DNA of 64,000 nt. Source: Pseudomonas pergaminensis. Lineage in GTDB: Bacteria; Pseudomonadota; Gammaproteobacteria; Pseudomonadales; Pseudomonadaceae. The translations under genes were made by a program, and so were the position numbers. The notes beneath the pieces were generated by a model. The model did not search any database and was not told where the DNA came from. It saw only the letters and a program-made list of their open reading frames with translations. Positions 39,611-54,950 of this stretch are shown here, piece by piece (positions within the stretch are counted from its first letter, which is position 1; each line of letters starts with the position of its first letter). The stretch is taken from the NCBI RefSeq assembly GCF_024112395.2, contig NZ_CP078013.2, positions 1,116,001 to 1,180,000 on the forward strand, read 5' to 3'.

Positions 39611-39627
39611 AAGACACCTGAGTCCAT

Positions 39628-39648: not shown

Positions 39649-39727
39649 TTACCAATCGAAAATACTGCTCCTTTGCTTGCCTAAGAACCCTAGTGCGTTG
39701 CCTTCGTAGGAAAGTCCGAATAGGCTG

Positions 39728-39768: not shown

Positions 39769-40428
39769 ATGACAGACATCGCCCCACTGATCAAACGCTC
39801 CCTGGTCGACCAGGCCCTGGAGCAGTTGCGCCTGCGCATCACTGAAGGCCGATGGGCCATTGGTGAACGCTTGCCCACCGAGCCCGAGCTGTCCGCCGAG
39901 CTGGGTATCAGCCGTAATACCGTGCGCGAGGCCATGCGGGTGTTGGCGTTCTCCGGGTTGATCGAAGTCCGACAGGGTGACGGCAGTTACCTGCGCTCGA
40001 TGACCGACCCGTTGGGTGCGATGCGGGCGCTGTCGCACTGCACGCTTGAGCAGGCGCAAGAGACGCGGCAGATCCTGGAAGTGGAGGCCATCGGCCTGGC
40101 TGCACAGCGGCGTACCGCGCAAGATTTGAAGCTGTTGCGCAGCGCACTGGACGCCAGCGCCGAGTTGTACCACGGTGATTTGGAGGCCTATATCAGCGCC
40201 GACCTGGTGTTCCACAAACACTTGGTCGACGCTGCGCACAACCCTGCCTTGAGCGAGCTGTACCAATATTTCTCCGCCATCGTCGGCGCGCAGTTGCGCC
40301 AGACCCTGAATATCTCACCGCGCCGCCAGGCCGTATTCGACCTGCATATCGCCTTGCTCGACGCGGTCGAAAACCAAGACCCGGAACGCGCCAAATCCCT
40401 CTGCCGGCAGTTGATCAATGAACCTTGA
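39769..40428 (+). CDS. GntR-family regulator with FCD domain
   Basis: A 219-residue regulator: an N-terminal winged helix (LRLRITEGRWAIGERLPTEPELSAELGISRNTVREAMRVL region) and a C-terminal FCD ligand domain with conserved Asp/His residues (DLVFHKHLVDAAHNP). The start is ATG 39769, as the upstream TTG has no ribosome site. Overlaps the CynX-type transporter gene by 11 bp, so it probably regulates its own operon and that transporter. Ligand unknown. Confidence 0.9.
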   Translation: MTDIAPLIKRSLVDQALEQLRLRITEGRWAIGERLPTEPELSAELGISRNTVREAMRVLAFSGLIEVRQGDGSYLRSMTDPLGAMRALSHCTLEQAQETRQILEVEAIGLAAQRRTAQDLKLLRSALDASAELYHGDLEAYISADLVFHKHLVDAAHNPALSELYQYFSAIVGAQLRQTLNISPRRQAVFDLHIALLDAVENQDPERAKSLCRQLINEP

Positions 40429-41683
40429 AGCCAAACGCACGACCGAACTTGAAGAGCTGCTGATCGACGCCGAAGCCGATGACGAGGAAGTGCAGCACGC
40501 CCACCCCGTGGTAAGCCGCCCGTGGCTGTTGCTGCTGGGCCTGATCCTGGTGGCGCTGAACCTGCGCCCGGCACTGTCGAGCATGTCGCCGCTGCTGGCT
40601 GAGGTCTCACAAAGCCTTGGGCTGTCGGCGGCCAAGGCCGGTTTACTGACCACTTTGCCGGTGCTGTGCCTGGGGCTATTCGCGCCCACGGCGCCGATCC
40701 TGGCCCGACGTTTCGGTGCCGAGCGCGTGGTGCTGGGGATTCTGCTGACGTTGGCCGCAGGGATCATCCTGCGCAGCTCATTCGGTGAGCTTGGCCTGTT
40801 CGCCGGCAGCCTGATCGCCGGGGCAAGTATCGGCATCATTGGTGTGTTGCTGCCGGGCATCGTCAAGCGCGACTTTGCCAAACAGGCGGGCGCGATGACC
40901 GGCGTCTACACCATGGCGCTGTGCCTGGGTGCGGCGTTGGCGGCGGGCTCGACGGTGCCACTCAGTCATTACTTCGGCGACCGTTGGCGCATTGGCTTGG
41001 GATTCTGGATTGTGCCGGCGTTGGTCGCGGCGTTGTTCTGGTTACCGCAAGTCGGGCACAAACACGGTGCCCATCGGGTCGCCTACCGCGTGAAGGGGTT
41101 GCTGCGCGACCCTCTAGCCTGGCAGGTGACCTTGTACATGGGCCTGCAATCGTCGTTGGCGTACATCGTGTTCGGCTGGCTGCCGTCGATCCTGATCGGT
41201 CGTGGCCTGACGGCCACCGAAGCCGGCTTGGCATTGTCGGGCTCGATCATTGTGCAATTGCTGAGCTCCCTCGCCGCACCGTGGCTGGCCACCCGTGGCA
41301 AGGACCAGCGCCTGGCAATCGTGGTGGTGATGCTGCTGACCCTCGGCGGCTTGTTCGGCTGCCTGTATGCGCCGCTCGACGGGCTGTGGGGCTGGGCGAT
41401 TTTGCTGGGGCTGGGCCAGGGCGGCACGTTCAGCCTGGCGCTGACCTTGATCGTACTGCGCTCGCGGGACGCCCATGTCGCCGCCAACCTGTCGAGCATG
41501 GCCCAGGGCATCGGGTACACGCTGGCGTCCATGGGGCCGTTCGCAGTCGGCCTGGTGCATGACTGGACCGGCGGCTGGACGGCAGTGGGCTGGATCTTCG
41601 CGGTGATCGGCGTGGGCGCCATCGTTGCCGGCCTGGGCGCCGGCCGTGCGCGCTATGTGGCGGTCAGCAGCGAGCGGGTGTAA
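40418..41683 (+). CDS. CynX/NimT-type MFS transporter
   Basis: A 421-residue 12-helix transporter. After a charged N-terminal tail of about 40 residues, the first helix reads LLLGLILVALNLRPALSSMSPLL, the hallmark of CynX/NimT (cyanate/nitroimidazole) transporters; GVLLPGIVKRDFAKQ is another family block. Overlaps the GntR/FCD gene, forming a two-gene operon. Actual substrate unknown; cyanate is unsupported because no cyanase is nearby. Confidence 0.88.
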   Translation: MNLEAKRTTELEELLIDAEADDEEVQHAHPVVSRPWLLLLGLILVALNLRPALSSMSPLLAEVSQSLGLSAAKAGLLTTLPVLCLGLFAPTAPILARRFGAERVVLGILLTLAAGIILRSSFGELGLFAGSLIAGASIGIIGVLLPGIVKRDFAKQAGAMTGVYTMALCLGAALAAGSTVPLSHYFGDRWRIGLGFWIVPALVAALFWLPQVGHKHGAHRVAYRVKGLLRDPLAWQVTLYMGLQSSLAYIVFGWLPSILIGRGLTATEAGLALSGSIIVQLLSSLAAPWLATRGKDQRLAIVVVMLLTLGGLFGCLYAPLDGLWGWAILLGLGQGGTFSLALTLIVLRSRDAHVAANLSSMAQGIGYTLASMGPFAVGLVHDWTGGWTAVGWIFAVIGVGAIVAGLGAGRARYVAVSSERV

Positions 41684-41778
41684 CGGCTACAGGCACACCG
41701 CCTTGATCGTTGCCGCTCAAGGTCGGTGTACAGACGCTGGGCTTGGTTGGAACGCCAGTGCCGCCACGCCTTTTCGTC

Positions 41779-42402
41779 TTACAAGTATCTGACTGTGATG
41801 GTCACGGAGCCGTCCATGTTCACCTCGTTGTCCAAGGTCAGGTTTTGCGTCGGAGCGATTACCCCCGAGACAGACAGGTCGGTGGTCAGCAGCGTTACCG
41901 GTATCGGAGTCAATGAGCCCAAGGGGGCGACGGAGTAAAGGCCGTTATCCACTATCATGGGCTCCCGCTCCCAGGTCGTCCCGCCGTCCCATGAAACAAT
42001 ACCGCTGACGCCGACCCCGTCAGCGACGCGATTCATCGGACTTATGGTCAGGTAGCCCAGTCTCTCTGTGCCATTGATCAGGCCAAGTCCAAAGTTGTAA
42101 TAGTCATTGGAGGACTCGGTGCCTTCGCGGTTGTCTTTGGCCTCCAGGGCCATCATCGTCGCGCCTTCGCACGTCACCGTCATTTGCAGCGTTTGTCGCG
42201 GCAGGTAGGTGGGCCGGTCCTTGCGTAGGTCACTGGAGGAAATCTTGCCAAAGTCCAACGATCCGCCGTTGGACAACGCGGGGCTGCAAGCGCTAGGCGT
42301 GATCATGCCCTTGACCGTGAGGTCGGTGCTGCTGGCCGCCTGCACAATGGAGGCGGCAGCCAGCAACAGGGTGGCCGTGCAAGTAGGGAAAAATGCTTTC
42401 AT
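41779..42402 (-). CDS. DUF1120 pilin-like subunit (most downstream copy)
   Basis: A 207-residue exported protein, with a signal peptide ending at about residue 22 (VQAAS). The mature part has the layout shared by all DUF1120 proteins here: a donor-strand-like start SSTDLTVKGMITPSAC with the pilin spacing GxIxxxxC, a second Cys in TVTCEGA (likely disulfide), the core DNREG, and a C-terminal strand ending TVRYL with penultimate Tyr, as in chaperone-usher pilins. Last gene of the minus-strand fimbrial operon. Structural or minor subunit role is inference. Confidence 0.85.
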   Translation of the reverse strand: MKAFFPTCTATLLLAAASIVQAASSTDLTVKGMITPSACSPALSNGGSLDFGKISSSDLRKDRPTYLPRQTLQMTVTCEGATMMALEAKDNREGTESSNDYYNFGLGLINGTERLGYLTISPMNRVADGVGVSGIVSWDGGTTWEREPMIVDNGLYSVAPLGSLTPIPVTLLTTDLSVSGVIAPTQNLTLDNEVNMDGSVTITVRYL

Positions 42403-42450
42403 TTAAAGGTCTTCCTTCAGTGATGGGTGGAACTAGGGGTCAAGGGGGGA

Positions 42451-43101
42451 TTACAGGTAAACAACTTCCAGGGTGGCTGAGCCGTCCATCCGCACGTCGT
42501 GACTCAGGTCCAGGTTCTGCTTGGCGTTGATCACCGCTTCCAGGGTCAGCGTGCTGCTCAGCACCTGGATCGGTGAAGGGCCGGCGGTGCTGCCCTCGGT
42601 CTCAGTGAATCCCAGCAGGCTGCGCGAACCGATATCGATCGGGTTGCTATTGGCGGTGCGCCACGCCACGCCGCCGGTGGTGGATTCGGTGCCGTAGAGT
42701 TGCGTGACGCTGTCGGCGACGGTCTGTTTTGGGTCGAATTTCACCGAATACACACCGATCTTGTTGCCGCTGCCGTCCAGGCCCAGCCCATAGAAAATTT
42801 CGCTGTCGACGTGGGCGGTGCCGTCGCGGTTATCGCGCATGCGCAGGGCGTAGCGGCCCGGGGCGTTGCAGCTGACGGTCAAGGTCAGGGATTTGAGTGG
42901 CAGCCGCGTGCCGGTGGATTGGTTGAGGTCTTGCTGGGAAATCTTGCCGAAATCGACCACCCCGCCGCCGGAGAACACCGGAGTGCAGGCCATGGGGGTG
43001 ATCAAGCCGCCGACAGTGAGTTCGACAGTGGACGCAGCGTGGGTGGCGGCGGCACTGGCAAGCCAGGCGAAGGCGGCCACGAGAATCAATAACGTCTTCA
43101 T
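42451..43101 (-). CDS. DUF1120 pilin-like subunit
   Basis: A 216-residue relative: signal peptide to about residue 23, VELTVGGLITPMACTP (GxIxxxxC), second Cys in TVSCNAP, MRDNRDG, and a C-terminus ending LEVVYL. Its middle (SVKFDPKQTVADSVTQLYGTESTTGGVAWRT) resembles the long tip-type protein (next but one upstream) rather than the other pilins, including a shared STTG...W pattern. 10 bp from the preceding gene. Confidence 0.84.
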   Translation of the reverse strand: MKTLLILVAAFAWLASAAATHAASTVELTVGGLITPMACTPVFSGGGVVDFGKISQQDLNQSTGTRLPLKSLTLTVSCNAPGRYALRMRDNRDGTAHVDSEIFYGLGLDGSGNKIGVYSVKFDPKQTVADSVTQLYGTESTTGGVAWRTANSNPIDIGSRSLLGFTETEGSTAGPSPIQVLSSTLTLEAVINAKQNLDLSHDVRMDGSATLEVVYL

Positions 43102-43111
43102 GATTCAGCTC

Positions 43112-43732
43112 CTATAGGTACTTGATGCTCAGGGTCGCTGAGGCTTCGAAGTGCACTTCTTCGGTAAGCGGCAGGGTGTTAGTGGGGGCGAGGTAGGGAA
43201 TGAACTGTAGGTCGCCCGTCAGATGTTGTATCGCTGCTGGGACATGAGTCCGATCAGGGGTGAACGCAGTCAGGAAGTGGTGCGACAACACGGCTGATGG
43301 GGCCCAGGTATCGGGCCCCGTCGAGCCAATAGGATTCATGTCAACGTCGTCGGCCACCACCGACTCGAGGGTGATTTGCAGGAAACCGATTTTGGCGCTG
43401 TTGCCAGCCAGTCCCAGGCCGAACGTGCTGGAGTATTCGCTGTAGCTGGAACCGAGGCGGTTATCCTTGGGTTCCAGGGCCAGCAAGGTCATGGCTTCAC
43501 AGTTGATTGCAAAGTGCAGGCTGGAGGCGGGCAGCCGTGTGGGTTGATCGCTGTTCAGGTCCTTGGCTGCAAGCTTGCCCAAGTCATACACACCGCCATT
43601 GGACAAGCTGGGTGTGCAGGCACTGGGAGTGATCACGCCGCTGACGCTCAGGTCGACGGTCGAGGCGGCCTGGGCCTGTAACGCGCAGGCCAGCCCTACG
43701 CAGGCGGCCAGTGGAATCTGTATTGCTTTCAT
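43112..43732 (-). CDS. DUF1120 pilin-like subunit
   Basis: A 206-residue exported protein: signal peptide ending ALQAQA, VDLSVSGVITPSACTPSLSNGG, second Cys in AINCEA, KDNRLG, C-terminus LSIKYL. It is among the more divergent copies in its C-terminal half. Gaps of only 10 bp on both sides show it is inside the operon. Confidence 0.84.
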   Translation of the reverse strand: MKAIQIPLAACVGLACALQAQAASTVDLSVSGVITPSACTPSLSNGGVYDLGKLAAKDLNSDQPTRLPASSLHFAINCEAMTLLALEPKDNRLGSSYSEYSSTFGLGLAGNSAKIGFLQITLESVVADDVDMNPIGSTGPDTWAPSAVLSHHFLTAFTPDRTHVPAAIQHLTGDLQFIPYLAPTNTLPLTEEVHFEASATLSIKYL

Positions 43733-43742
43733 GCTTGAGTTC

Positions 43743-44870
43743 CTACAAGTAGTGAATTTCGAGAGTGCCCGAGCCGTCGAGGCGTACCTCGTTGCCCAGG
43801 TCCAGGGAGCCCAGGGGGGCGACAGTCGCCTCCAGGCTCAGCGTGGCATTGAGGTTTTGAATGGCGCTGGGCCCGCCGGTACTGCCGGATGTGCTGCTGA
43901 AACCCAGGTAACGATTGGCGCCTATTGCCGTGATGCGTGCGCCGGCGTTGCTCCACGGCAGGCTGCCGGTGGTGGAGTCGGTGCTGAAAACCTGGGCAAA
44001 GCTGTCGGCGGTGATGTGCGCGGGGTTGAACAGCAGCCGGTAGCGCCCGATTTTCTGTCGGCTGGCGTCCAGGCCCAGGCCATAACTGGTTTCATCGCCG
44101 GTACCGGTGGCCGAGCCCTGACGGTTGTCCTGCATGCGCATGGCAAATGCGGTGGGTGCATCGCAAGTCACGCTGAGCGATAACGCACGTGGCGCCAGAG
44201 CGGTGTCCTTGTCGACGGACAGATCGCCGACTGACAATTTGCCCAGCTCCACGTGGCCGCCGTTGGACAGGGTGGGCGTACACGCCGCCGGTGCAAAACG
44301 TGCCTGCCAGCGCAATTCCCGCGAGCGGCCGGCGCCGAGGGCATCGAACAGTCCAGCGGTGTCCCAGGTGACCGCGTCGCGCACCCGGGCAGCGTCTTCA
44401 CTGGCCCAGGCACTGGCGTCCAATTGCAGCGACAGGTTGCGCCCGGTTACCGCGACGCCACCGCGCATCGGCACCACGCCGTGGTCAGGCTGCCATTCCA
44501 ATGGAGCACCGACTGCGGACGGTGCTTGCCCAGGGCCTGCGATCAGACCGAGCTCGACTGCCTGGCCGTCCAGCACCGCTTCGCGCACTTGCAAGGCGTA
44601 ACTGCCGCGTTCGGTGAAGCGAAACCGCCCAGGCCCCGCGCCCAACCCGCGATAAAACACACTCATGTCGGTGGGCTGCGGGCAGTTCAGCGTGAGGCTC
44701 AACTGCCGCTCCCCCAACAATCGCTCGGGCGCGGGCACCAAGGCCACGGCGCGGTTCATCAAGCCGAAGTCCAACTGCGTCTGGCTGAGATTGAGCTGGC
44801 ATTCTTCGACGGCCAGGGCGTGGGGGCTGATCAACACGCCCAAGACGTACAAGACCGGTTTCAGGTCCAT
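43743..44870 (-). CDS. Two-domain DUF1120 protein, probable fimbrial tip adhesin
   Basis: A 375-residue exported protein. After the signal peptide (to about residue 21) comes a unique N-terminal domain of about 190 residues beginning EECQLNLSQTQLDFGLMNRA. The C-terminal half is a DUF1120 domain (AACTPTLSNGGHVELG, TVTCDAP with its Cys, MQDNRQG, ending LEIHYL). It lacks the free SSVDLTVKG donor-strand start of the pilins, as expected for the first, tip-located subunit. The start at 44870 has GAGGA upstream and follows the usher stop. Ligand unknown. Confidence 0.82.
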   Translation of the reverse strand: MDLKPVLYVLGVLISPHALAVEECQLNLSQTQLDFGLMNRAVALVPAPERLLGERQLSLTLNCPQPTDMSVFYRGLGAGPGRFRFTERGSYALQVREAVLDGQAVELGLIAGPGQAPSAVGAPLEWQPDHGVVPMRGGVAVTGRNLSLQLDASAWASEDAARVRDAVTWDTAGLFDALGAGRSRELRWQARFAPAACTPTLSNGGHVELGKLSVGDLSVDKDTALAPRALSLSVTCDAPTAFAMRMQDNRQGSATGTGDETSYGLGLDASRQKIGRYRLLFNPAHITADSFAQVFSTDSTTGSLPWSNAGARITAIGANRYLGFSSTSGSTGGPSAIQNLNATLSLEATVAPLGSLDLGNEVRLDGSGTLEIHYL

Positions 44871-44881
44871 GGTCAGAGTCC

Positions 44882-47338
44882 TCATGGTTGGCGGCACCGG
44901 GCTGGTGCGGTCTCGAAATACACATCCGGGTCACTGTTTTTCGGCAGTGCAAAGTCGAGTCGGCAGCGCGCCTGGCCTGGGGCTTTGACCCACAGGGGGC
45001 GCGTGTCGAGCACGTCGGGCAGGAACACCTGGCTGCCTTCCTGCACCAGGGTGATGAACTCGCCATCGGCGGTGCTCACCGCCGCGCCGCGGGGCAGGGG
45101 CTGGCCGTCGTCGGTGGTCACGTTCAGCAGGGCGCGACGCGTCAGATGCACGCCAAACTGCACGCTGTCGACGGCCCCGCGCCCAGCGGAAATCACCGCC
45201 AGCCCATTGCTGATATCGGCATTGCGCGGCAGCGAACGGGTTTGCACTTCCACCGGGCTGCGGCCATAGGCGCTGACCTGCGGCACCACCGCCTGGCCTT
45301 GCCAGTCGGTCCATACCGGGCCGCTGGGGGTGTTGACCTTGACGCCGGCCATTTCGCCCACGGACATCACCGCGAAGGTATCGCGCACCGGGTAGGGCGA
45401 GAACGTCACGCCGTCGCCATGCACCACCACGCCGCCGCGCGCGCCGCCTTGGTAGCTGGAGCGTTCGCGGTCGGAGCGGGTGTAGTTGAAGTCGAGCTGG
45501 CTGTAATACGGCAAGGCGGACATACCGAGGGACGACTCCACCTCGCGGTCACGGCTGTCGCGCTCCACGCCCACGCGGTAACTCAACTGGTCGTTGAGTT
45601 GCTCGCTGAGGCCGACGCCCAGGCGGTGTTCTCCGCCGGTGTTGCGCGCCCAGGCGCGGCCGCGACGGCTCTCGCCCAGGGGCACGCTGACGGTGAGGTA
45701 CAGGCTGTCATCGCTCTGCTGCCGGCCACCGACCTGCCATTCGGCACTCGCGGACACCGAGACGTTGCCGAAACTGGTGCCCCATGACGCCAGCGCGCGG
45801 CTGCTGCTGAAACCCGCATAGGAGGCCGAGCGCGAGAAGCCGGCGCTGAACGCACCTAATGACGGGTGTGACCAGGACGCGGTGGCGCTTTGCTGGTCGC
45901 GGTAGCGCGAGCGTTGCTGTTCATGGGTGTAGGTGGAATAGGTCGATTCATCCAGGTCGCGGTAGCCCAGGGAACGCCACGACAGGGCGGTGCTGACAGC
46001 CCAGCGCTCGCTCAAGCGCTGGGACCATGACAGGTCAGTCTGTACGCCCTGTTCGGTATCGGTGCGACTGGCTTGGGCTGCCTGCGCGGAGAATTGAAAC
46101 TGGCTGTCCTGCCAGGGCAACCAGCCCAGGCTCAAGCCCGCCGAGCGATAGGCATCCGCTACCAACAGTCCGGCGCCTAGGCTGGCTTGGGGGTGTACCG
46201 CGCCGTTCCAGCCGGCGCTGACCACCCAGGGTTCGGCGCCGTCGCTGTCGCCGATCTTGCGCACGCGTCCCGCCGCCACCGAATAGCCCGGGGCCGGTAA
46301 CCCGAGGCCAAGCATCGCCGCCGGCACAGTAAAGCGCCGCTCCTCGCCGGTGCTTTCCTTGACCGTGACTTCCACGTCCGAGCGATTGTTCAAGCGACGC
46401 ACATCGCGCAGCGAAAACGGCCCGGCCGGCACCACGGTGGAATGGATCAGCGTGCCGTTCTGGCGGATCTCGACCTGGGCCGGGCTGTTGGCAATGCCAT
46501 CGATGGTTGCGCCCTGGTTCTGTTCCTGCAAGGCGGTTTCGGTCAGCACCTGCGCGCCGGTGATCTGCGTGCCTGCCAGTACCGGGTTGTAGAGGCTGAT
46601 CTGCCCGGCCTGCAACACCGCCTGCTGGGCAGCGAAGGTGCGTTGGGCATAGGCATCCAGGTGGGTGCTGCGTGATTGGCTGTCTTGCCAGGTCTGTACC
46701 TGGCGGCTGCGCACGATCCAGTCACCGGCGTTGAAACCCACTTCGGTATTGGCCGAGCCGAAGTGCGACGTGTCGTCACCGTATTCGTTGTAGAGGCCGG
46801 TCAAATCGTAGTTGAGCAGGCCGGCAAAGCCACCGGTCTGGTAGCCGGAAATGTCCTGTTCCACCGGGCGCAGGGCCTCGGTTGACACCACCAGCGACAG
46901 GCTCAGGTTAGCCGGGTCCTGCTCGATCACGGTGCGCGGGTGGGCGTCGAGAAACCCGGTGCAATCCGTATCACCCGTGTCGCCAGGCACCACCAGGTTG
47001 CCGGCGTCGAGCAAGGCACGGTTGAAGCACAGCGTGCCCTGACCGTCGAACAGCACATCCACGCGACCGCGCCGCTGACCGTTGACGATCAGGTTGACTG
47101 CATGCCGGCCGGCCCCGAAGCGTGGCGCCTGCAACAGCATGTTTGCCAGTTCCGGATCGATGCCGCGCTGGGACAGGGTCTGGGGGTCGAAGGAGCCGGC
47201 CAGCAGCAGCTCATCGGCGAGAATCTCGCCCGCCGGCAGTGCGCAGCTCAGTGCCAGGCCGGCCAGGAGTGCGCGGGAACGGCGGGATGAAACGTCGGGC
47301 AGGGCTTCGCCGCCACGATCAGTTATTAGTGTGTTCAC
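44882..47338 (-). CDS. Fimbrial outer-membrane usher
   Basis: An 818-residue usher (FimD/PapC family): N-terminal periplasmic domain from about residue 42 (LLLAGSFDPQTLSQRGIDPELANMLL region), a beta-barrel of about 500 residues including the plug domain region (PAQVEIRQNGTLIHSTVVPAGPFSLRD), and C-terminal domains ending with a Cys pair. It forms the secretion and assembly pore for the DUF1120 subunits. Its 3' end is adjacent to the tip-type gene, and its 5' end is 54 bp from the chaperone gene. Confidence 0.95.
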   Translation of the reverse strand: MNTLITDRGGEALPDVSSRRSRALLAGLALSCALPAGEILADELLLAGSFDPQTLSQRGIDPELANMLLQAPRFGAGRHAVNLIVNGQRRGRVDVLFDGQGTLCFNRALLDAGNLVVPGDTGDTDCTGFLDAHPRTVIEQDPANLSLSLVVSTEALRPVEQDISGYQTGGFAGLLNYDLTGLYNEYGDDTSHFGSANTEVGFNAGDWIVRSRQVQTWQDSQSRSTHLDAYAQRTFAAQQAVLQAGQISLYNPVLAGTQITGAQVLTETALQEQNQGATIDGIANSPAQVEIRQNGTLIHSTVVPAGPFSLRDVRRLNNRSDVEVTVKESTGEERRFTVPAAMLGLGLPAPGYSVAAGRVRKIGDSDGAEPWVVSAGWNGAVHPQASLGAGLLVADAYRSAGLSLGWLPWQDSQFQFSAQAAQASRTDTEQGVQTDLSWSQRLSERWAVSTALSWRSLGYRDLDESTYSTYTHEQQRSRYRDQQSATASWSHPSLGAFSAGFSRSASYAGFSSSRALASWGTSFGNVSVSASAEWQVGGRQQSDDSLYLTVSVPLGESRRGRAWARNTGGEHRLGVGLSEQLNDQLSYRVGVERDSRDREVESSLGMSALPYYSQLDFNYTRSDRERSSYQGGARGGVVVHGDGVTFSPYPVRDTFAVMSVGEMAGVKVNTPSGPVWTDWQGQAVVPQVSAYGRSPVEVQTRSLPRNADISNGLAVISAGRGAVDSVQFGVHLTRRALLNVTTDDGQPLPRGAAVSTADGEFITLVQEGSQVFLPDVLDTRPLWVKAPGQARCRLDFALPKNSDPDVYFETAPARCRQP

Positions 47339-47392
47339 AGGTCGTACTCAAAGGGTGTCGGCCGCCCTCTTGCGGGGCGGTACGCAGGGGCG

Positions 47393-48094
47393 CTAAAGCG
47401 TGATCGGTGCTTCGTAAGGCGCCACGGCAAAGCCGTAGACGGTGGCCGGTTGCAGTTGCACGCGGGTGGCCCCGGCTGCACTGGCCGTTACGCTCAGGGT
47501 TTCCCCCGGCAGTACATAAGTGCGCGGCAACAGCGCCGAGCCCGTGCCTGGCAACAGCCGCAGTTCCTGGGCCAGACGCACCACGTACGGCGTCGGGTTG
47601 TGCACCGTCAACTGAGTCTGGTCCAGGCTCCAGCTCAAGCCGGTCCAGGGCGTGCGGTTCGGTGCCAGGCCCTTGGGATGCACAATCACCGGCAGGTTCT
47701 GGCGCACGGTCACGCCGACGCGGGCATGCCCGGCCTCGGTGGTCGAACGGCCCTGGGGCATGCCTTCGAAAATCACCCGCTTGAGGCGCTGGGTTTCCAG
47801 CGGCTTGGGCGATTGCAGGATGAAGCGGATCAGTTGGCTCTTGGACGGTTCGACCCGAGCCAGGGGCGGCGTGACAAACAGCAGCGGTTCCGGGTCTTCG
47901 GGAATGTCTTCCAGGGTGACGTGCAGCAGGGCCAGCTTGTCGTCGGTGTTGGTCACCGACACTGAGGCTTCACCGTCGTCTTCGTTGACGATCACCACGG
48001 AGGTGTCCGGCACCATGCCGTCGGCCAGCAGTGGGCCGCAGAACAGCAGAACAAGACAGGCGCCCAGGCGTCGGGCGCGGTTCGGGGAAATCAT
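47393..48094 (-). CDS. Fimbrial periplasmic chaperone
   Basis: A 233-residue PapD/FimC-type chaperone with signal peptide (ending GPLLAD) and two Ig-like domains. The basic groove region QLIRFILQ and the chaperone pattern LKRVIFEGMP are visible, the latter aligning with the G1-F1 strand area. The start at MISPNRARR (48094) gives a standard signal peptide; a frame start at 48139 would add 15 residues. Located between four upstream pilin genes and the usher. Confidence 0.9.
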   Translation of the reverse strand: MISPNRARRLGACLVLLFCGPLLADGMVPDTSVVIVNEDDGEASVSVTNTDDKLALLHVTLEDIPEDPEPLLFVTPPLARVEPSKSQLIRFILQSPKPLETQRLKRVIFEGMPQGRSTTEAGHARVGVTVRQNLPVIVHPKGLAPNRTPWTGLSWSLDQTQLTVHNPTPYVVRLAQELRLLPGTGSALLPRTYVLPGETLSVTASAAGATRVQLQPATVYGFAVAPYEAPITL

Positions 48095-48141
48095 GGGGTT
48101 CACCGGTTGGGAAAAGTGAGGGTTGGGAAGAGGTGACATGG

Positions 48142-48768
48142 CTACAGGTACCTCAGGTCGAGCACGATGGAACCGTCCAGCGGCACCTCTTGTTTGAGGG
48201 TCAGGAATGCTGACGCGTTGATCGATGTATTCACCTGCAAGGTGGCGGTCAGCAGGCGGTGGGCTTCGGGTATCAGCGTGCCCGGCTTGGCGAAGCCCAT
48301 GTAGGTGTCCGGGTAGGCATTGGACTCCGGGAACCAGGTCTGGCCCTGGTTGCTGGACGCCAGTACCAGCGCGGGTTCGCCATCTACCACCACGTCACGG
48401 AACCCCAGGGACACGGTGCCCAAGCGCTCGCTAGGCTCATGGATGTTGTTCCCCAGGCCGTAATAAAACCCGGGGCCCAGGGAGGAGCTGGCGCGGTTGT
48501 CCAGACCCACCAGCACGAACAGCACCGACTCGTTGCAGCTCACACTCAGGTCCAGAGTCTGGGTGGGCAGGGCGCTGAACTCATGCTGATTGAGACTGCG
48601 CGCCGGGATCCGGCCATGATCGACGATGCCGTCGGCCGAAAGCAGCGGTGTGCAGGCGCTGGGTGTGATCAGGCCCCGGACCGTGAGATCGACAGAGGAT
48701 GCGCCAAAGGCAGGCGCGGCAGTCAGGCAGAAAGCGAGTGTCACCAGGCGGCGTGAAAAGGTGTTCAT
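48142..48768 (-). CDS. DUF1120 pilin-like subunit
   Basis: A 208-residue exported protein: signal peptide ending PAFGAS, VDLTVRGLITPSACTPLLSADG, second Cys in SVSCNES, LDNRAS, C-terminus IVLDLRYL. It begins MNTFSRRL; the fossil fragment at 49510-49566 starts almost the same way, marking a past duplicate of this gene. Ends 47 bp before the preferred chaperone start. Confidence 0.85.
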   Translation of the reverse strand: MNTFSRRLVTLAFCLTAAPAFGASSVDLTVRGLITPSACTPLLSADGIVDHGRIPARSLNQHEFSALPTQTLDLSVSCNESVLFVLVGLDNRASSSLGPGFYYGLGNNIHEPSERLGTVSLGFRDVVVDGEPALVLASSNQGQTWFPESNAYPDTYMGFAKPGTLIPEAHRLLTATLQVNTSINASAFLTLKQEVPLDGSIVLDLRYL

Positions 48769-48851
48769 GGCTGTGTCTTGTGACCGTGGTTAAGGGGCAA
48801 CGGGGATGACAGCGTTGCGCGCAATGGCGGGGGCCGTCGTGCGCGACTGGC

Positions 48852-49475
48852 TTACAGGTACCTGACCGTCAGGGTCACGGAGCCGTCGATGCTGGCTTCG
48901 TTATCCAGGGTCAGTTGGTTTGTCGGGGCAATGGTTGGGGAGATCTGCAAATCTGCGCTGAGCAACTGGACAGGTTTCGGCGTGATACTGTTCATGTCTG
49001 CTACCGAAGTGATGCTGTCGCGCGCTAGCTGGCGGTCGGGGTGCCAGGCGGTACCGCCGTCGTAGGACGCAATGAATCTGACTGCGATGCCATCGGCGAC
49101 AGGGGGCGCTAGCCTCATCTCCATGAGGCCGAGTTTCTCGCTGCCGTTGATCAGCCCCAGGCCGTAGTACTGCACGCCGTCGATGTAGCTCGAGCCTTCG
49201 CGGTTGTCCTTGCTTTCCATGGCGATCAAGGTGGCTGCCTCGCACGTGACGGTCAGTTGCAGGGTTTGAACGGGGAGGGCGGTCGATTTATCGACGTTGA
49301 GGTCCTTGGCCGAGAGCTTGCCGTAGTCCACCGCGCCACCGTTGGACAGGGTCGGGGTGCAGGAACTCGGTGTGATCAGGCCCTTGACCGCGAGGTCGAC
49401 GCTGGAGGCGGCGATCGCCTGGGTAGCACCTGCCAGCAGCAGGCTGGCAACGAGGGGCTTGATGGGGAGGTGCAT
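48852..49475 (-). CDS. DUF1120 pilin-like subunit (tandem duplicate A)
   Basis: A 207-residue exported protein: signal ending ATQAIAAS, VDLAVKGLITPSSCTPTLSN, second Cys in TVTCEAA, KDNREG, C-terminus LTVRYL. The first 55 residues are nearly the same as those of the gene at 49615-50238 and the DNA is close too, so the two arose by recent tandem duplication. ACTCC-type (rc GGAGT) ribosome site precedes the ATG. Confidence 0.87.
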   Translation of the reverse strand: MHLPIKPLVASLLLAGATQAIAASSVDLAVKGLITPSSCTPTLSNGGAVDYGKLSAKDLNVDKSTALPVQTLQLTVTCEAATLIAMESKDNREGSSYIDGVQYYGLGLINGSEKLGLMEMRLAPPVADGIAVRFIASYDGGTAWHPDRQLARDSITSVADMNSITPKPVQLLSADLQISPTIAPTNQLTLDNEASIDGSVTLTVRYL

Positions 49476-49509
49476 GTCGGTACTCCTGTAGAAAAAGGTG
49501 AAAGCGCGC

Positions 49510-49566
49510 TTACCCAGACTTGAGTTGCAAAGTGGCGTGCCCCAGGCGGCGTGAACGGGTGTTCAT
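49510..49566 (-). pseudogene. Fossil of a deleted DUF1120 gene (18 codons left)
   Basis: An 18-codon remnant reading MNTRSRRLGHATLQLKSG then stop. The first eight residues match the start of the DUF1120 gene at 48142-48768 (MNTFSRRL) and the last ten match the end of the gene at 50277-50900 (GHATLQLKYW). The DNA on both sides also resembles the flanks of those genes. It appears to be a pilin gene whose whole interior was lost. No ribosome site is seen. Confidence 0.75.
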
Positions 49567-49614
49567 GGGCAACGGCAATGGCCGCGATGCGCGCAACAGC
49601 GGCGAGCTGTCGGC

Positions 49615-50238
49615 TTACAAATACTTGACCGTTAGGGTCACGGAGCCGTCGATGGCGGCTTCGTTGGTCAGGGTCAGTTGGTTCGTCGGGGCAATGAACG
49701 GGTTGATCTGCAGGTCGGCGTTGAACATTTGGACCGGCATTGGTGCCACGGTGCTCGCGTCGGCCACCGAAAGAAGGGTGTCGTCCATGAACATGTAATC
49801 GGGAGCCCAAGTGTTACCACTGTCATAGGAAATGATGGTTCTGGCCGCCACGCCGTCCGCCACCGGGTTGCGCAGCCCCAGTGTCATGCCGCCGAGCTTT
49901 TCAGTGCCGTTGATCAGCCCCAGTCCGTACTCCATCTGGTCGTTTTCGTAATCTGAGCCTGCGCGGTTGTCCTTGCCCTCTATGGCCATCAGGGTCGCTG
50001 CGTCGCAGGTGACCGTCAGTTGCAGGGTTTGCATGGGCAGGAGCGTCTTGCGGTCCGCGTTGAGATCCTTGGCCGAGATCTTGCCGTAATCCACCGCGCC
50101 ACCATTGGACAGGGTCGGTGTGCAGGAACTCGGTGTGATCAGGCCCTTGACCGCGAGGTCGACGCTGGAGGCGGCGATCGCCTGGGTGGCACCTACCAGC
50201 AGCAGGGTGACAACGAGGGGCTTGATGGAGAGGTTCAT
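49615..50238 (-). CDS. DUF1120 pilin-like subunit (tandem duplicate B)
   Basis: A 207-residue protein, close relative of the gene at 48852-49475: signal ending ATQAIAAS, VDLAVKGLITPSSCTPTLSN, TVTCDAA, KDNRAG, C-terminus LTVKYL. Differences concentrate in the middle (surface-exposed) part. The start at MNLSIKPL (50238) has AGGAG upstream; a frame extension of 15 residues overlaps the previous gene's stop. Confidence 0.87.
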   Translation of the reverse strand: MNLSIKPLVVTLLLVGATQAIAASSVDLAVKGLITPSSCTPTLSNGGAVDYGKISAKDLNADRKTLLPMQTLQLTVTCDAATLMAIEGKDNRAGSDYENDQMEYGLGLINGTEKLGGMTLGLRNPVADGVAARTIISYDSGNTWAPDYMFMDDTLLSVADASTVAPMPVQMFNADLQINPFIAPTNQLTLTNEAAIDGSVTLTVKYL

Positions 50239-50276
50239 GGTGGGACTCCTGTGGGAAGAAAAGTGAAAAAGCCGGC

Positions 50277-50900
50277 TTACCAATACTTGAGTTGCAAGGT
50301 GGCGTGCCCGTCGATGGGCACCTCATCGAGCAGCGTCAGGTCGCTGGCCGGAACCACGATGGTGAAGGCGCGCAAGCGCGCGCTCAGGTCCTGCATGGCA
50401 ATGGGCGTGCTGGTGTCGCCGGGCGCGGCGAATGAGGTCAACGCGGCGTGCCCCAGGTACGAAGACGGCCCCCAACTGCCGCCCCCATCGCGGGACATGA
50501 TGGCGGTCACCGGCACGCTGTCGGCGATCGGCTCGAACACCCCGAAAGCCACACTGCCCAGGTCCTGGTCTTCGTTGACCTTGCCCAGCCCGTGGAACAC
50601 CGGGTTGATCGCCGAGCTTCCCGAGCGGTTGTCGACGGTGCTCAGGGTGAAGAACGTCGCGCCTTCGCAATGCACGGCCAGGTTCATCTCACCGACGGGC
50701 AGGCGGGTGGGTTGGTCGCGATCCAGGTCCTTGACCGTCAATTTGCCGTGATCCACCACACCACCTTCCGAAAGCGTCGGCGTGCAGGAGCTCGGGGTGA
50801 TGATCCCGGTGACGCTCACGTCGGTAGTGCTGGCGGCGAAGACCGCCGGCGTGCAAGCCGCCATCAGCAGGGCAAAAACAGCGGGGGTGGGGCTATTCAT
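50277..50900 (-). CDS. DUF1120 pilin-like subunit (first full-length copy)
   Basis: A 207-residue exported protein: signal ending PAVFAAS, TTDVSVTGIITPSSCTPTLSEGG, Cys in AVHCEGA, VDNRSG, C-terminus ATLQLKYW. The last residue is Trp instead of Leu. It starts at 50900 with AAGGA upstream; the GTG six bases earlier is less likely. It is the first full-length pilin of the operon and may be the major subunit, which is inference. Confidence 0.84.
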   Translation of the reverse strand: MNSPTPAVFALLMAACTPAVFAASTTDVSVTGIITPSSCTPTLSEGGVVDHGKLTVKDLDRDQPTRLPVGEMNLAVHCEGATFFTLSTVDNRSGSSAINPVFHGLGKVNEDQDLGSVAFGVFEPIADSVPVTAIMSRDGGGSWGPSSYLGHAALTSFAAPGDTSTPIAMQDLSARLRAFTIVVPASDLTLLDEVPIDGHATLQLKYW

Positions 50901-50930
50901 GGGCACAAATCCTTGTGAGAGGCTGGTGGG

Positions 50931-51116
50931 TTACAGGTAGCGCAATTCCAGGGGGGATGAGCCGTGGATCGGCTGCTCCTCGGTCAGGGTCAGGTTGCAG
51001 GCGTTGGGTGTTATCAGCCCCTTGACGGTCAAGTCGACGCTACTGGCGGCCAGTGCGTCAGATGAGCCACCGACGATCAGCAAGGCTGTCAGGGCGGCGG
51101 TGAGTGAGGCGTTCAT
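50931..51116 (-). CDS. Mini DUF1120 protein: two pilin ends without the body
   Basis: A 61-residue protein: signal peptide (about residues 1-23), then SSVDLTVKGLITPNAC exactly as in the full-length pilins, joined directly to NLTLTEEQPIHGSSPLELRYL, which aligns with the last 21 residues of them. About 145 residues of Ig-like body are missing, in frame. The ribosome site AGGA at proper spacing (before ATG 51116) and the stop are intact, so it should be made and exported. It is the first gene of the fimbrial operon. Either a decaying gene or a functional mini-pilin; not decidable from sequence. Confidence 0.75.
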   Translation of the reverse strand: MNASLTAALTALLIVGGSSDALAASSVDLTVKGLITPNACNLTLTEEQPIHGSSPLELRYL

Positions 51117-51449
51117 ATCAATGTTCCTGGAATAAAGGCGTGCTAGGGCACGATTTGCCGGCAGTGGCAAAAGACCTCTATTTGGGTTGTTTTGAAGTGG
51201 GGAGCAATGTATCGCTAGCCCTGGGAAAGGAGGAATACAACAAATACGAAAGGCGGGAGGCTGGGTTGCTTGAGAGGGAGGAGGCGTGGGGAAAGTGGCG
51301 GGCCGCTTGTAGGAAAAACTTAAATCTCGTAGTAGTTGTATCGCTGAAAAAGATCCACTCGGATACGTTCTTACCCAACTATCGCTCTGACTCAATCCCA
51401 CGAGTCGAGCTGCTTTTAGTACGCGAAAAGTTCGAGAAACGCTGGCGCC
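51117..51449. other. Divergent control region of the DUF1120 locus
   Basis: A 333-bp gap between the mini-pilin and the REC-Hpt gene, lower in GC than its neighbours. It should contain the fimbrial operon promoter on the minus strand and that of the regulators on the plus strand, but I recognise no clear -35/-10 pair. A plus-strand open frame of about 127 codons crosses it (51104-51487), rich in rare AGG, TTA and GTA codons and without a ribosome site; I do not call it a gene. Confidence 0.55.
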
Positions 51450-51524
51450 TTGCGTTGGCACACTTCAACCAACTCCTTGCTCCATGAGGGACCTGGTGGG
51501 CTTGTCGCTCTGCATGAGGTTATT

Positions 51525-52304
51525 TTGCCGGGCAAATATCCAGGCCATTGGCAACACGTCAACGTACTGGTAGTAGATGACCACCGGGTCTATCGGCTAT
51601 TGATCGGCGGGTTACTGCACAAATTGGGCGTGCCCCATGAAGTCCACTGCGATGGGCAAGCTGCCCTGGACGCAATGGCTGGCAGCACGTTTGATTTGGT
51701 GATCACTGACTGCCGCATGCCGCTCATGGATGGCTACACCCTTGCCCGTGAACTGCGGCGCCGCGAGCGTGAGGCCGGGAGACCCCGCGTGCCAGTCATT
51801 TCCCTGACCGGCCGGCTCGGCCAGCAAGAAGTCCGGCGTTGCCTGGACAGTGGCATGGACGGCTGGCTGATCAAACCCATCACGCTCGAACAACTCAAGG
51901 AAGTGTTGATGTACTGGCTGCCGGACCCCCGGCAGCGTCTACGCAAAGGACCTATAACCGTGCATGAGCGTTCTCAGGAAACACGGCCCACCCGAGCAGG
52001 ACTGATCGCTGCCTTCGGCTCTTGGGGCGTGGTGCAACCTCTGTTGGAGAGCCTGTTGCAGGAAGCACGGGAAGACCTGGAGGCACTGGAGCAGGCGCGA
52101 GTCAGTGGCGATATTTCGCTCACGACACAGCGCCTGCATCGCCTGGTGGGTAGCATCGCGTTCCTGGGGGCGACGGGGTTGGAGCGCCGTGCGATCCAGT
52201 TGACCGACCGCGTCAATCTCTCGGGTGTTGCCTTTAACGGCGCGGCTTTGCAGGCGCTTTGCCAAGAGGTCGAGCGGTATTTGGAAGAACTGGCGTTCCT
52301 TTGA
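51525..52304 (+). CDS. REC-Hpt phosphorelay protein without kinase domain
   Basis: About 259 residues: a receiver domain (VLVVDDHR, phosphorylated Asp in DLVITDCRMPLMDGY, SLT, and Lys in IKP) and, from about residue 160, an Hpt domain with the phospho-His in LHRLVGSIAFLGATGLERRA. This sequence resembles the C-terminal end of BvgS/EvgS-type hybrid kinases (VITDCxMPxMDG), but no sensor, HisKA or ATPase part precedes it. The start is uncertain: there is no in-frame ATG. TTG at 51525 with TGAGG five bases ahead is preferred; the frame stays open back to 51450. Confidence 0.78.
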   Translation: MPGKYPGHWQHVNVLVVDDHRVYRLLIGGLLHKLGVPHEVHCDGQAALDAMAGSTFDLVITDCRMPLMDGYTLARELRRREREAGRPRVPVISLTGRLGQQEVRRCLDSGMDGWLIKPITLEQLKEVLMYWLPDPRQRLRKGPITVHERSQETRPTRAGLIAAFGSWGVVQPLLESLLQEAREDLEALEQARVSGDISLTTQRLHRLVGSIAFLGATGLERRAIQLTDRVNLSGVAFNGAALQALCQEVERYLEELAFL

Positions 52305-52505
52305 TTACCTCTGATAAAGCTGAAGGAAATCATCCGTCTAAGTTGTAGTACTTTTCTGAGGGTTGATTCTTTTTATTCTGTAGGTGAACTGCTTGAAGTC
52401 CTAAAATACGGGGCTCTCGCTTTAAGGGGTTAATTATTTCCGGTTGTTGCTTAAAGACCTCCGAGGTATTTTGCCCGACTCACACTTCTATCTTGGATAG
52501 CGCCG

Positions 52506-53141
52506 ATGATTCGCATCATTATTGCTGACGATCACCCTATTGTCCGAGTCGGTCAGAGAGTGGTGATCGAGGCGAGTGGTAAGTGCAAAGTCGTGGGGGA
52601 GGCCAATGGCCCGGACCAACTGCTGACCCTGGTCGGCAGCACACCTTGCGATGTTATTGTCACGGACTTCGCCATGCCCGGCGACCATCAAGCCGATGGG
52701 TATGGATTGCTGGGATTGTTGCATCGCCAATACCCGAAATTGCCGGTGGTACTGGTGACCATGTTTGCCAATGTCTCGACCCTGCGTTCGGCATTTTCCC
52801 ATGGGGCGCAGGCCGTCGTGGCCAAAAGCGCGTCAGCGCGGGAGCTGCCGCTGGCACTCAAGGCCGTGAGCGAAGGCCGCACCTTTGTCAGCGAATGCCT
52901 GCGCGTGCAACTGGATGAAGCCTGCCATGCGCAGCCAACGCAGCCGGCACGGCTGTCCGGTAAAGAACACGAAGTGGTGCGCATGCTCGCCAGCGGCATG
53001 ACCGTCAGCCAGATTGCCGCGCGGGTCAATCGCAGCATCTCGACCATCAGCAAGCAAAAGAGTACGGCGATGCAGCGGTTATGCATTTCTACCGATGTGG
53101 ATCTGTTTACCTATGCGCGGGAAAGTGGAATGGTGCCCTAG
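52506..53141 (+). CDS. NarL/FixJ-type response regulator (BvgA/EvgA/RcsB-like)
   Basis: A 211-residue two-domain regulator: receiver (IIIADDHPIVRVG, phospho-Asp in VIVTDFAMPG, Lys in VVAKSAS) and a C-terminal LuxR-type helix-turn-helix (LSGKEHEVVRMLASGMTVSQIAARVNRSISTISKQKSTAMQRL). It is probably the final acceptor of the phosphorelay through the REC-Hpt protein 201 bp upstream and a regulator of the flanking DUF1120 genes. Related regulators control fimbriae and biofilm (BvgA, RcsB, CupD PvrR region). Target and cognate kinase are inference. Confidence 0.88.
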   Translation: MIRIIIADDHPIVRVGQRVVIEASGKCKVVGEANGPDQLLTLVGSTPCDVIVTDFAMPGDHQADGYGLLGLLHRQYPKLPVVLVTMFANVSTLRSAFSHGAQAVVAKSASARELPLALKAVSEGRTFVSECLRVQLDEACHAQPTQPARLSGKEHEVVRMLASGMTVSQIAARVNRSISTISKQKSTAMQRLCISTDVDLFTYARESGMVP

Positions 53142-53351
53142 CAACTTTGCAAGTGCTTAAGTTGCAGATTTATTACAGGGGGAAGTGCGCGATTCGTAAT
53201 ACTTGCATTGGGTTAAAGTTGGACGCGCGTTAAATTTGACTCACGTACCCGGCAGCTATAAGTCGGGGCCTATATACCCTCTGTCCAACACTTAGTCGAA
53301 CTGGCGCGGCAGTCTTTTGTCGTGCCAAGTTCGATGTTTAATGAGTCTTTT

Positions 53352-53996
53352 ATGATGAAACATTCCCTGTCCCTTATTGCTGCCGTGTTTCTACTGTCCG
53401 GTGCGTCCAACTTGCTTGCCGCATCCGCGGTTGACCTGAGTGTCAAGGGCACCATTACGCCTTCCGCCTGCACCCCGACCTTGTCAAGTGGTGGTGTGGT
53501 CGAGCATGGAAAGATTTCCATGCAAGACCTGCATCCGTACCAGTCGACCAGACTGGCGGATGCCACGCTACAACTGACGGTCAACTGCGCTGCGTCGACT
53601 TTGTTTGCCATACAGAGCCATGACAACCGCGAAGGCACTTCAGCAGAATGGAACGGCGCTCGTCCCAATTATGGCCTTGGGTTGGCCAATGGCGATGTAA
53701 AAATTGGCTGGTACATGCTCAAAATGATCAACCCACTGGCTGATAGCGTGCCACGGGCAGTCATTGAATCAATCGACGGCAAGACCTGGCTTGATGCCCC
53801 CACTGGCACTGTCTGGCAACCGGGCTGGATGAGGTCGTTCAACGGCGCCGCCGGTGGCGATCCAGTGCCGCTTTCAATGGTGACCATGCAGGTGGATGTG
53901 GTGGTGGAGACCACCATCGCCGACAAACGCAAGTTGCCCGCTGACCAGGAAATCCCCCTCGACGGCAGTGCAACCCTGGATGTCGTCTACCTCTAA
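53352..53996 (+). CDS. DUF1120 pilin-like subunit on the opposite strand
   Basis: A 214-residue exported protein with signal ending NLLAAS, VDLSVKGTITPSACTPTLSSGG (GxIxxxxC), second Cys in TVNCAAS, HDNREG, and C-terminus LDVVYL. It follows the response regulator on the plus strand, 210 bp away, with its own presumed promoter. The ATG at 53352 or 53355 starts a good signal peptide; no strong ribosome site is seen. It could be a minor subunit made under different conditions from the main operon. Confidence 0.83.
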   Translation: MMKHSLSLIAAVFLLSGASNLLAASAVDLSVKGTITPSACTPTLSSGGVVEHGKISMQDLHPYQSTRLADATLQLTVNCAASTLFAIQSHDNREGTSAEWNGARPNYGLGLANGDVKIGWYMLKMINPLADSVPRAVIESIDGKTWLDAPTGTVWQPGWMRSFNGAAGGDPVPLSMVTMQVDVVVETTIADKRKLPADQEIPLDGSATLDVVYL

Positions 53997-54092
53997 CCTC
54001 GCCATGCTCCATTTATGCGGTGAATGACCATGGTGTTCCCAGGCTTCGCGGCTTATCGTGCACCCCTACAGCGATAACCGCGGAGCCTGCCC

Positions 54093-54563
54093 ATGAGTGA
54101 TGCCCATAACCTGTTGATCACCCGCTTCTACGAAGCCTTCCAACGCCTGGACGCCGAGGCCATGGCCGCCTGCTACACCGATGATGTGGTGTTCAGCGAC
54201 CCGGCCTTTGGCGAACTGCGCGGCCGCGATGCCGGTGACATGTGGCGCATGCTCACCACACGGGCCAAGGACTTTTCGCTGACCTTCGACCATGTGCGCA
54301 GCGATGACACCACCGGCAGTGCGCATTGGGTGGCGACGTACCTGTTCAGCGCCACCGGCAATACCGTAGTCAATGACATTGGTGCGCGCTTTGTGTTTCG
54401 CGACGGCAAGATCTGCGAGCATCACGATCACTTTGACTTGTGGCGCTGGTCGCGTCAGGCGCTGGGCCTCAAGGGGCTGTTGCTGGGCTGGTCGCCGGCC
54501 CTGAAAAACGCCGTGCGTGCCCAGGCCTTGAAAGGTCTGAAGGCATTTCAGGCCGGTCGTTGA
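54093..54563 (+). CDS. NTF2-like/SnoaL-family protein
   Basis: A 156-residue protein of the nuclear-transport-factor-2-like superfamily: ITRFYEAFQRLDAEAMAACYTDDVVFSDPAFG at the N-terminus is typical of SnoaL-like and ketosteroid-isomerase-like proteins, and ends in HHDHFDLWRWSRQAL. Cytoplasmic. No catalytic function can be assigned. GGAG lies seven bases before the ATG. A separate unit from the DUF1120 genes. Confidence 0.82.
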   Translation: MSDAHNLLITRFYEAFQRLDAEAMAACYTDDVVFSDPAFGELRGRDAGDMWRMLTTRAKDFSLTFDHVRSDDTTGSAHWVATYLFSATGNTVVNDIGARFVFRDGKICEHHDHFDLWRWSRQALGLKGLLLGWSPALKNAVRAQALKGLKAFQAGR

Positions 54564-54599
54564 TAAGCTTGGCGCTCCCCTGGTTTGCCGACACTGCCC

Positions 54600-54875
54600 G
54601 TGACTGATCTTCCTGACCCCAAACCCTGGTTTGTCTACCTGGTGCGTGCCGCCAACGGCTCGTTGTACTGTGGCATCAGCAATGACCCGGTGCGCCGCTT
54701 TGCCTCGCACCAGAGCGGCAAGGGCGCGCGGTTCTTCCTCTCCAGCCCCGCAGTGGCGCTGGTGTACACCGAGCAATGCGCGAGCAAAGGCGAGGCGCTG
54801 CGCCAGGAACGGCTGATCAAGAAGCTCAGGAAGAGCGCCAAGGAATGCCTGGCGGCGAGTGGCTCATTGATTTGA
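54600..54875 (+). CDS. GIY-YIG nuclease-domain protein (UPF0213/YhbQ-like)
   Basis: A 91-residue single-domain GIY-YIG protein. Motifs: [24 protein letters not shown] (the GIY-YIG signature as VYLV...YCGI, then the conserved Arg) and [20 protein letters not shown] with the conserved Glu and Lys/Arg. YhbQ-type proteins are small DNA-acting enzymes of uncertain role. GTG at 54600 is used; TTG at 54585 is in frame. No clear ribosome site was seen. Confidence 0.85.
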
Positions 54876-54950
54876 CTGATGGGTTCCCATCGCACCGAAC
54901 CGCCGTATCGCAGGCTAAGCTAGCGGCTCATCCATTGAGCGGAGCCTGGC

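Follow-up and report, generated by a model that had tools for sequence, protein, structure and literature searches.

The ushers YhcD and StjB define the beta clade of chaperone-usher fimbriae in the accessible parts of three papers (PMC3373541, PMC9238391, PMC5216030). Beta-fimbriae are described there as lacking a typical adhesin, and one of the papers (PMC3373541) adds that structural and functional information on the clade is missing. The Yhc system of Escherichia coli (gltF-yhcADEF) combines an usher of the YhcD clade, a YhcA-type chaperone, DUF1120 subunits and a gene that overlaps the end of the usher gene; in K-12 it comprises two pilin genes and a short yhcE broken by IS5. A beta-fimbrial locus of Cronobacter sakazakii BAA-894 (ESA_03512 to ESA_03521) carries seven ‘major subunit’ genes, as given in the accessible parts of PMC7545074, and its locus numbers place these on both sides of one chaperone and one usher. 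Here we describe a locus that resembles these systems in Pseudomonas pergaminensis, at positions 41779-53996 of a 64,000-nucleotide window (assembly GCF_024112395.2, contig NZ_CP078013.2, positions 1,116,001 to 1,180,000; coordinates below are those of the window), where nine DUF1120 genes flank one usher gene (44882-47338) and one chaperone gene (47393-48139).

As an assembly system the locus is of a known kind; its likely tip had gone unrecognised, and the rule proposed for its subunits is unusual. It differs from K-12 Yhc in a putative tip fused to a pilin domain and in its eight pilins, and from the Cronobacter locus in that the latter is enterobacterial. As a whole, we read it, with some confidence, as a beta-clade fimbria with a fused, pre-complemented tip and interchangeable pilins in a mixed fibre. 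No work on Pseudomonas DUF1120 fimbriae turned up in the literature searched, which covered few subscription papers; a likely tip protein 3′ of the usher, fused to a pilin in some loci, a donor strand conserved beyond the rest of the pilin, and a pilin remnant together with a duplication scar were likewise not found in print.

Judged by its proteins, the locus is a beta-clade chaperone-usher fimbria of the Yhc/Stj kind. The usher matches PF00577, PF13953 and PF13954 above cut-off, and its likeness to Salmonella Stj is drawn through its best NCBIfam model, NF011832, which we take to be that of the Stj usher (663.8 bits, below the curated cut-off of 723; next model 207.9 bits). The chaperone exceeds the cut-offs of PF00345, PF02753 and the YhcA-type model NF007392 (245.9 bits, cut-off 183). 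In an IQ-TREE phylogeny of 35 ushers, which includes YhcD but not StjB itself, this usher and YhcD belong to a 27-member clade (100/100), outside which lie seven K-12 ushers other than YhcD and a further one from Citrobacter. The want of a typical adhesin gene is a published description of the clade and not a criterion, membership resting on the usher; the present locus departs from that description in having a two-domain tip-type protein 3′ of the usher.

A first-pass annotation, made from the sequence alone, had proposed a chaperone-usher fimbria with donor-strand pilins, one usher, one chaperone, a tip-type protein, an exceptional number of pilins and two deletion products. An open reading frame (ORF) is present at each coordinate it named, and PF06551 (DUF1120) is above cut-off in the eight full pilins and in the two-domain protein at 43743. 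Its fimbria, genes and motifs are borne out by domains, NCBIfam models, usher tree, tip model and donor-strand motif; its view of the set as unusual and its count of deletion products are not, for reasons given below. On the minus strand, the usher, the chaperone and eight of the nine DUF1120 genes follow one another in the same orientation. Features are as follows, with counts referring to the 52 two-domain loci introduced in the next section.

41779-42402, minus: DUF1120 pilin D3, accessory (PF06551, 57.6 bits)
42451-43101, minus: DUF1120 pilin D2, core group (44/52 loci), closest paralogue of tip domain 2
43112-43732, minus: DUF1120 pilin D1, accessory (group in 9/52 loci)
43743-44885, minus: putative two-domain tip protein (PF06551 on second half, NF011829 PRK15301 on first half; AlphaFold2 model; VIA-align)
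44331-44807, minus: tip domain 1 (model residues 25-183), homologous to stand-alone one-domain tips (profile comparison, alignments)
44283-44327, minus: tip linker (model residues 185-199), donor-strand-like (model strand; register counts over 52 tips)
43746-44282, minus: tip domain 2, DUF1120 pilin core (model residues 200-378; profile comparison with pilins)
44882-47338, minus: outer-membrane usher, beta clade (PF00577, PF13953, PF13954; NF011832; tree)
47393-48139, minus: periplasmic chaperone, YhcA family (NF007392; PF00345, PF02753)
48142-48768, minus: DUF1120 pilin U1, core group (32/52 loci)
48852-49475, minus: DUF1120 pilin U2, tandem duplicate of 49615 (71% amino acid identity)
49510-49566, minus: 18-codon ORF, duplication junction (alignment of the two units)
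49615-50238, minus: DUF1120 pilin U3, the other duplicate copy
50277-50900, minus: DUF1120 pilin U4, core group (40/52 loci)
50931-51116, minus: 61-codon pilin remnant (motif scan; comparison with the relative G017)
51558-52304, plus: receiver-Hpt protein, divergent from the operon (PF00072, PF01627; listed ORF start 51450)
52506-53141, plus: RcsB-like LuxR-family response regulator (PF00072, PF00196; NF008098)
53352-53996, plus: DUF1120 pilin O1, divergent strand, accessory (group in 13/52 loci; PF06551, 61.5 bits)

The protein encoded after the usher

Comparison began from 101 loci: this one, 20 from the genus set (from 19 of 23 DUF1120-positive relatives, plus the second locus of the same genome) and 80 from a wider search, a non-random sample made up of the best 80 of 282 for a query headed by E. 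coli YhcD. Leaving out L035 (no intact usher) and the duplicates L067 and L122 gave 98, which were sorted by the run of the next DUF1120-like ORF beyond the usher end. This gene encodes a two-domain protein in 52 loci and a one-domain protein in 45, and is absent from one (L112, at the threshold); L026 is one-domain by position and doubtful, since the gene after its usher ends pilin-like and a tip-like gene precedes the usher. All two-domain loci that carry names are Pseudomonas, and in these 52 a donor-strand-like linker connects the domain of the one-domain proteins with a DUF1120 pilin in a single fused protein.

By profile comparison, the two-domain protein of this locus consists of a DUF1120 pilin domain preceded by a domain like YhcE/PRK15301. 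Its gene starts at an ATG at 44885 that overlaps the usher stop, a start chosen over the listed GTG at 44897. The first half scores 72.7 bits against NF011829 PRK15301, under the cut-off of 226, and domain 1 matches the stand-alone one-domain tips with probability 100 (E 7.8e-42), these having been aligned once as 26 rows and once as all 45 one-domain rows; domain 2 matches the pilins equally firmly (probability 100, E 7.3e-60). An AlphaFold2 model, built from 43743-44879 (mean pLDDT 83.8), resembles solved two-domain tips by VIA-align, with a pilin-like fold in domain 2 and a linker strand at residues 185-196 that register counts over the 52 tips mark as donor-strand-like. The layout is that of a two-domain tip, a tip domain followed by a pilin domain without a free N-terminal extension of its own, and the extension motif precedes the first cysteine in only 2 of 97 tips. 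The nearest known two-domain tips are CupB6 of P. aeruginosa (5cyl), FimH and CfaE, to none of which the putative tip shows a sequence match; a Protein Data Bank (PDB) sequence search with the tip profile returned no chain up to E 1.

From the model fold and the same slot 3′ of the usher in relatives, the gene after the usher likely encodes a tip protein, as first proposed, with adhesion itself putative. The two-domain protein would then form the tip of the fibre, the former N-terminal extension of the fused pilin would serve as linker and fill the groove of the tip domain within the same chain, and the tip would leave the usher already complemented, presenting one open groove. The comparison gives the beta clade a likely tip protein and suggests a role for yhcE, whose function is called unclear in the accessible parts of publications. 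In K-12, yhcE, broken by IS5, occupies the slot after the usher (L040:8165-9930), and the ORF that covers the first of its fragments has a weak match (E 1e-4) to tip domain 1.

The ushers of two-domain loci are monophyletic in a FastTree phylogeny of 97 ushers (weak support, 0.557, for all 52; full for 51), and the seven sampled in the 35-usher tree form a 100/100 clade. The simplest reading of these trees is one fusion followed by expansion, and the link between fusion and pilin number therefore rests on a single event.

Pilin number and turnover

The claim that eight pilins are exceptional is rejected by genus search and census alike. DUF1120 was found in 24 of 59 genomes of the genus, own genome included; a class-wide search gave a match in 1 of 274 genomes, the source genome itself. 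Counted as stop-to-stop ORFs of at least 170 amino acids, full pilins number a median of 5 (range 1-9) in two-domain loci versus 1 (range 0-5) in one-domain loci. This locus scores 9 by that rule rather than its actual 8, since the 61-codon remnant has a stop-to-stop frame that the rule takes in, and seven other two-domain loci score 8 or 9. Many pilins are usual for this Pseudomonas sub-clade, and the seven-subunit Cronobacter locus is already published.

Orthologue groups of unequal spread make up these sets: the 42451 group is present in 44 of the 52 loci, 50277 in 40, 48142 in 32 (all three together in 31), 53352 in 13 and 43112 in 9. The grouping rule placed 197 of 270 pilins and left 73 ungrouped, having skipped two fragments (from this locus or a relative). 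Against G017, the relative with the most similar tip (87%) among those fetched, identity is 81-86% for usher, chaperone and tip, 76-82% for core pilins, 50-66% for accessory pilins and 58.5% for the receiver-Hpt protein; the 41779 pilin has no clear orthologue there, its best match (56%) being the counterpart of 48852/49615. We suggest that the core pilins 48142, 50277 and 42451 have been kept across species, and that the accessory pilins 48852/49615, 43112, 41779 and 53352 are gained and lost by tandem duplication and deletion and would supply most of the variation.

Traces of both processes are visible. The 48852 and 49615 genes represent the tandem duplication of a unit of about 770 bp, which opens with the end of a 50277-like gene and closes with the start of a 48142-like one (805 aligned columns, 74.5% identity), and the 18-codon ORF at 49510-49566 is the surviving junction, joining a 48142-like gene start to a 50277-like gene end. 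The 61-codon piece at 50931-51116 is what is left of a pilin that lost its middle in frame, and it retains the signal peptide, the donor strand and the final strand; over 68 nucleotides its 3′ part is 84% identical to G017's last upstream pilin gene. We rejected the idea of a retained mini-pilin because G017, the one relative compared, has a full gene there and no remnant was seen in it. Of the two deletion products first proposed, this is one. The second had been given without coordinates, and its match to 49510-49566, a duplication junction, is uncertain; a motif scan of 40000-55000 and a repeat scan brought up that ORF as the single odd piece besides the remnant.

Of the ten DUF1120 matches in the genome, nine lie at this locus and the tenth in L038 (G000:C1:6338000-6354000), a minimal beta-fimbrial locus of one pilin, chaperone, usher and one-domain tip. 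Elsewhere, the beta-fimbrial locus L035 (G051) is fragmented into numerous short frames; the listed contamination of its genome is 9%.

Donor strands and the make-up of the fibre

All eight pilins begin with a donor-strand-like N-terminus of alternating hydrophobic residues and glycine followed by cysteine, a motif shared by 260 of the 270 pilins from two-domain loci; the consensus first proposed is departed from slightly in 42451 (VELTVGGLITPMAC), 50277 (TDVSVTGIITPSSC) and 41779 (STDLTVKGMITPSAC). The second cysteine is invariant in the alignment, and the penultimate tyrosine is present, with 50277 ending YW. Across the 46 loci with at least three pilins, the donor strand (C-13 to C-3) averages 67.6% identity within loci versus 39.8% for the rest of the protein, with ratios of 1.24-2.1, and in 25 of them a sliding window finds the N-terminal extension to exceed every later window. 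In six K-12 operons, the corresponding values are 0-27% for the donor strand versus 26-34% for the rest. The strands are conserved as protein and not by DNA conversion: gene conversion was rejected as a general cause, codon identity given amino acid identity being 0.499 within and 0.490 between loci (between-locus pairs sampled at 15%), the exception being the 48852/49615 pair, which is 99% identical over 69 nucleotides in this region.

Because the donor strand is almost the same in all pilins and their groove strands are alike, any of them could be added to the chain once the tip is in place, and the fibre would be a mixed polymer. Such a mosaic, one of the two roles first suggested for the set, is plausible from sequence, and the conserved donor strand raises its likelihood. 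That Pseudomonas beta-fimbriae in general are natural mosaics, a universal donor strand letting one usher string together up to nine paralogous pilins and the fused, pre-complemented tip freeing the array to gain and lose members by tandem duplication and deletion with assembly undisturbed, is a more tentative proposal, on which we would not count. Co-expressed variants of a single subunit assemble into mixed fibres in engineered Caf1 (according to the accessible parts of PMC6582577); those were engineered from one gene, whereas a mixed fibre here would be natural and its paralogues are about 40% identical. The locus offers an easy route to testing whether one usher builds mixed fibres, and a natural one, if real, would bear on surface-antigen diversification and on the design of mixed protein polymers.

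Several observations weigh against this reading of a mixed fibre. N-terminal extensions are nearly as similar between loci (65.1%) as within them (67.9%; 268 of 270 pilins anchored), and one-domain loci share the conservation (66.1 versus 47.8%; extension higher in 16 of 18). The conservation is therefore mostly a family trait, which speaks for compatibility and not for co-assembly, and does not show mixing in one fibre. A within-locus excess of 2.6 points at matched core identity, reached by none of 200 label shuffles, is given no weight because it is small and the shuffles ignore relatedness. The yardstick comprises six K-12 operons only, with a looser anchoring rule, and in four of these the sliding window puts the extension near its own median, not below; GltF and YhcF of the beta-clade yhc operon itself share 0% over the extension. 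For the tip, the linker was placed in the domain 1 groove from aligned ranges and a strand list, not from coordinates, and a tree of tip domain 2 with the pilins is poorly supported and does not recover tip domain 2 as monophyletic, so that the closeness of domain 2 to the 42451 type (43 of 49 loci) rests on pairwise alignment scores. Finally, some pilins hold fixed positions, which fits an ordered fibre too.

An ordered fibre, in which, as in type 1 and P pili but with more subunits, each pilin is specialised for a set place such as adaptor, rod or anchor, is unlikely but merits serious attention. Three groups sit at about fixed gene positions in 32-44 of the 52 loci, and the 42451 type is the one nearest to tip domain 2, as an adaptor beside the tip would be. 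However, the donor strands of all eight pilins are near-identical, unlike those of the K-12 fim, yad, elf and yfc operons, and the other pilins vary widely in number and kind.

We think it distinctly less probable that the pilins form a repertoire of which one or a few are made at a time, so that cells would differ from one another in antigen, ligand or phage receptor through differential expression. Some turnover of the set is indeed seen, as this second of the roles first suggested would have it: pilin gain and loss are visible, accessory pilins diverge faster from G017 than the core and the assembly genes do, and one pilin lies on the opposite strand. Yet the ten minus-strand genes are tightly spaced, the donor strand bears no general sign of gene conversion, and simple scans gave no hint of a switch or of silent cassettes: terminator-like sites are at chance (10 found, 10.1 expected), promoter-like sites barely above it (4 versus 2.8), and no invertible element was recognised among the 25 of 47 inverted repeats listed.

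Poorer still are the prospects of a view in which most accessory pilins are neutral duplicates drifting towards loss. The remnant and scar at this locus fit it, as do short pilin ORFs in 6 of the 52 two-domain loci (one of them, L120, on a 6.8-kb contig), but all eight pilins here are open, with cysteine pair, N-terminal extension and C-terminus intact, and their donor strands are kept at the protein level. That these are soluble periplasmic proteins unconnected with a fibre, as the old annotation of K-12 GltF as periplasmic might suggest, is scarcely credible given that 92 of the 98 loci (chosen by usher or DUF1120 cluster) have pilins close to the usher, that nearly all pilins of two-domain loci bear the extension motif and that the homologous tip domain 2 has a pilin-like fold.

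Two further features of the pilins may be recorded. They carry a motif S-x-[DN]-x-G-x-[TSA]-W (residues 137-144 in 48852-49475, for example), which we take to be Asp-box-like; the tryptophan occurs in all 268 aligned pilins, the serine in 256 and the glycine in 245. In its strict form the motif occurs in 125 of the 270 pilins from two-domain loci (0.28 on average and at most 1 in shuffles), in 10 of 67 from one-domain loci and in no tip, a loose form being present in 2 of 52 tip domains 2. A PDB search with one pilin sequence gave chance-level matches only, and one with the pilin profile gave 15 sequences that look or are named sialidase-type, over a short motif (best E 0.0023). In some beta loci, one pilin lacks the usual strand glycine (YhcF in L040, and one each in L045, L065, L068 and L073); it is perhaps an anchor or terminator.

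Regulatory genes and neighbours

The plus strand encodes, besides the 53352 pilin, a receiver-Hpt protein and an RcsB-like regulator. The latter scores 146.6 bits against NF008098, under the cut-off of 235; the former matches RcsC and BarA models over the receiver part of those models, far under cut-off, and a domain scan of it found no kinase or EAL domain. Within the fetched stretches, the RcsB-like gene (E < 1e-50) is present in 45 of 52 two-domain versus 0 of 45 one-domain loci, and the receiver-Hpt gene (E < 1e-40) in 27 of 52 versus 0 of 45. In P. aeruginosa, RcsB and PvrR control CupD, a chaperone-usher locus that likewise has an RcsB-like regulator beside it; the present locus differs in the receiver-Hpt protein with its lack of recognised kinase and EAL domains. 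Expression is probably under the control of this divergent pair, served by a kinase whose gene would lie elsewhere. Four one-domain loci (L037, L059, L061, L063) contain a long ORF of 1041-1237 amino acids that partly matches the receiver-Hpt protein and presumably encodes a putative hybrid kinase; the receiver-Hpt protein may be a cut-down kinase.

ARAGORN calls a tRNA-Trp at 46171-46252, on the strand opposite the usher, which is probably false because Rfam at gathering threshold finds no match. Near the fimbrial locus, at 38811-39655, lies an MqsR/MqsA toxin-antitoxin pair.

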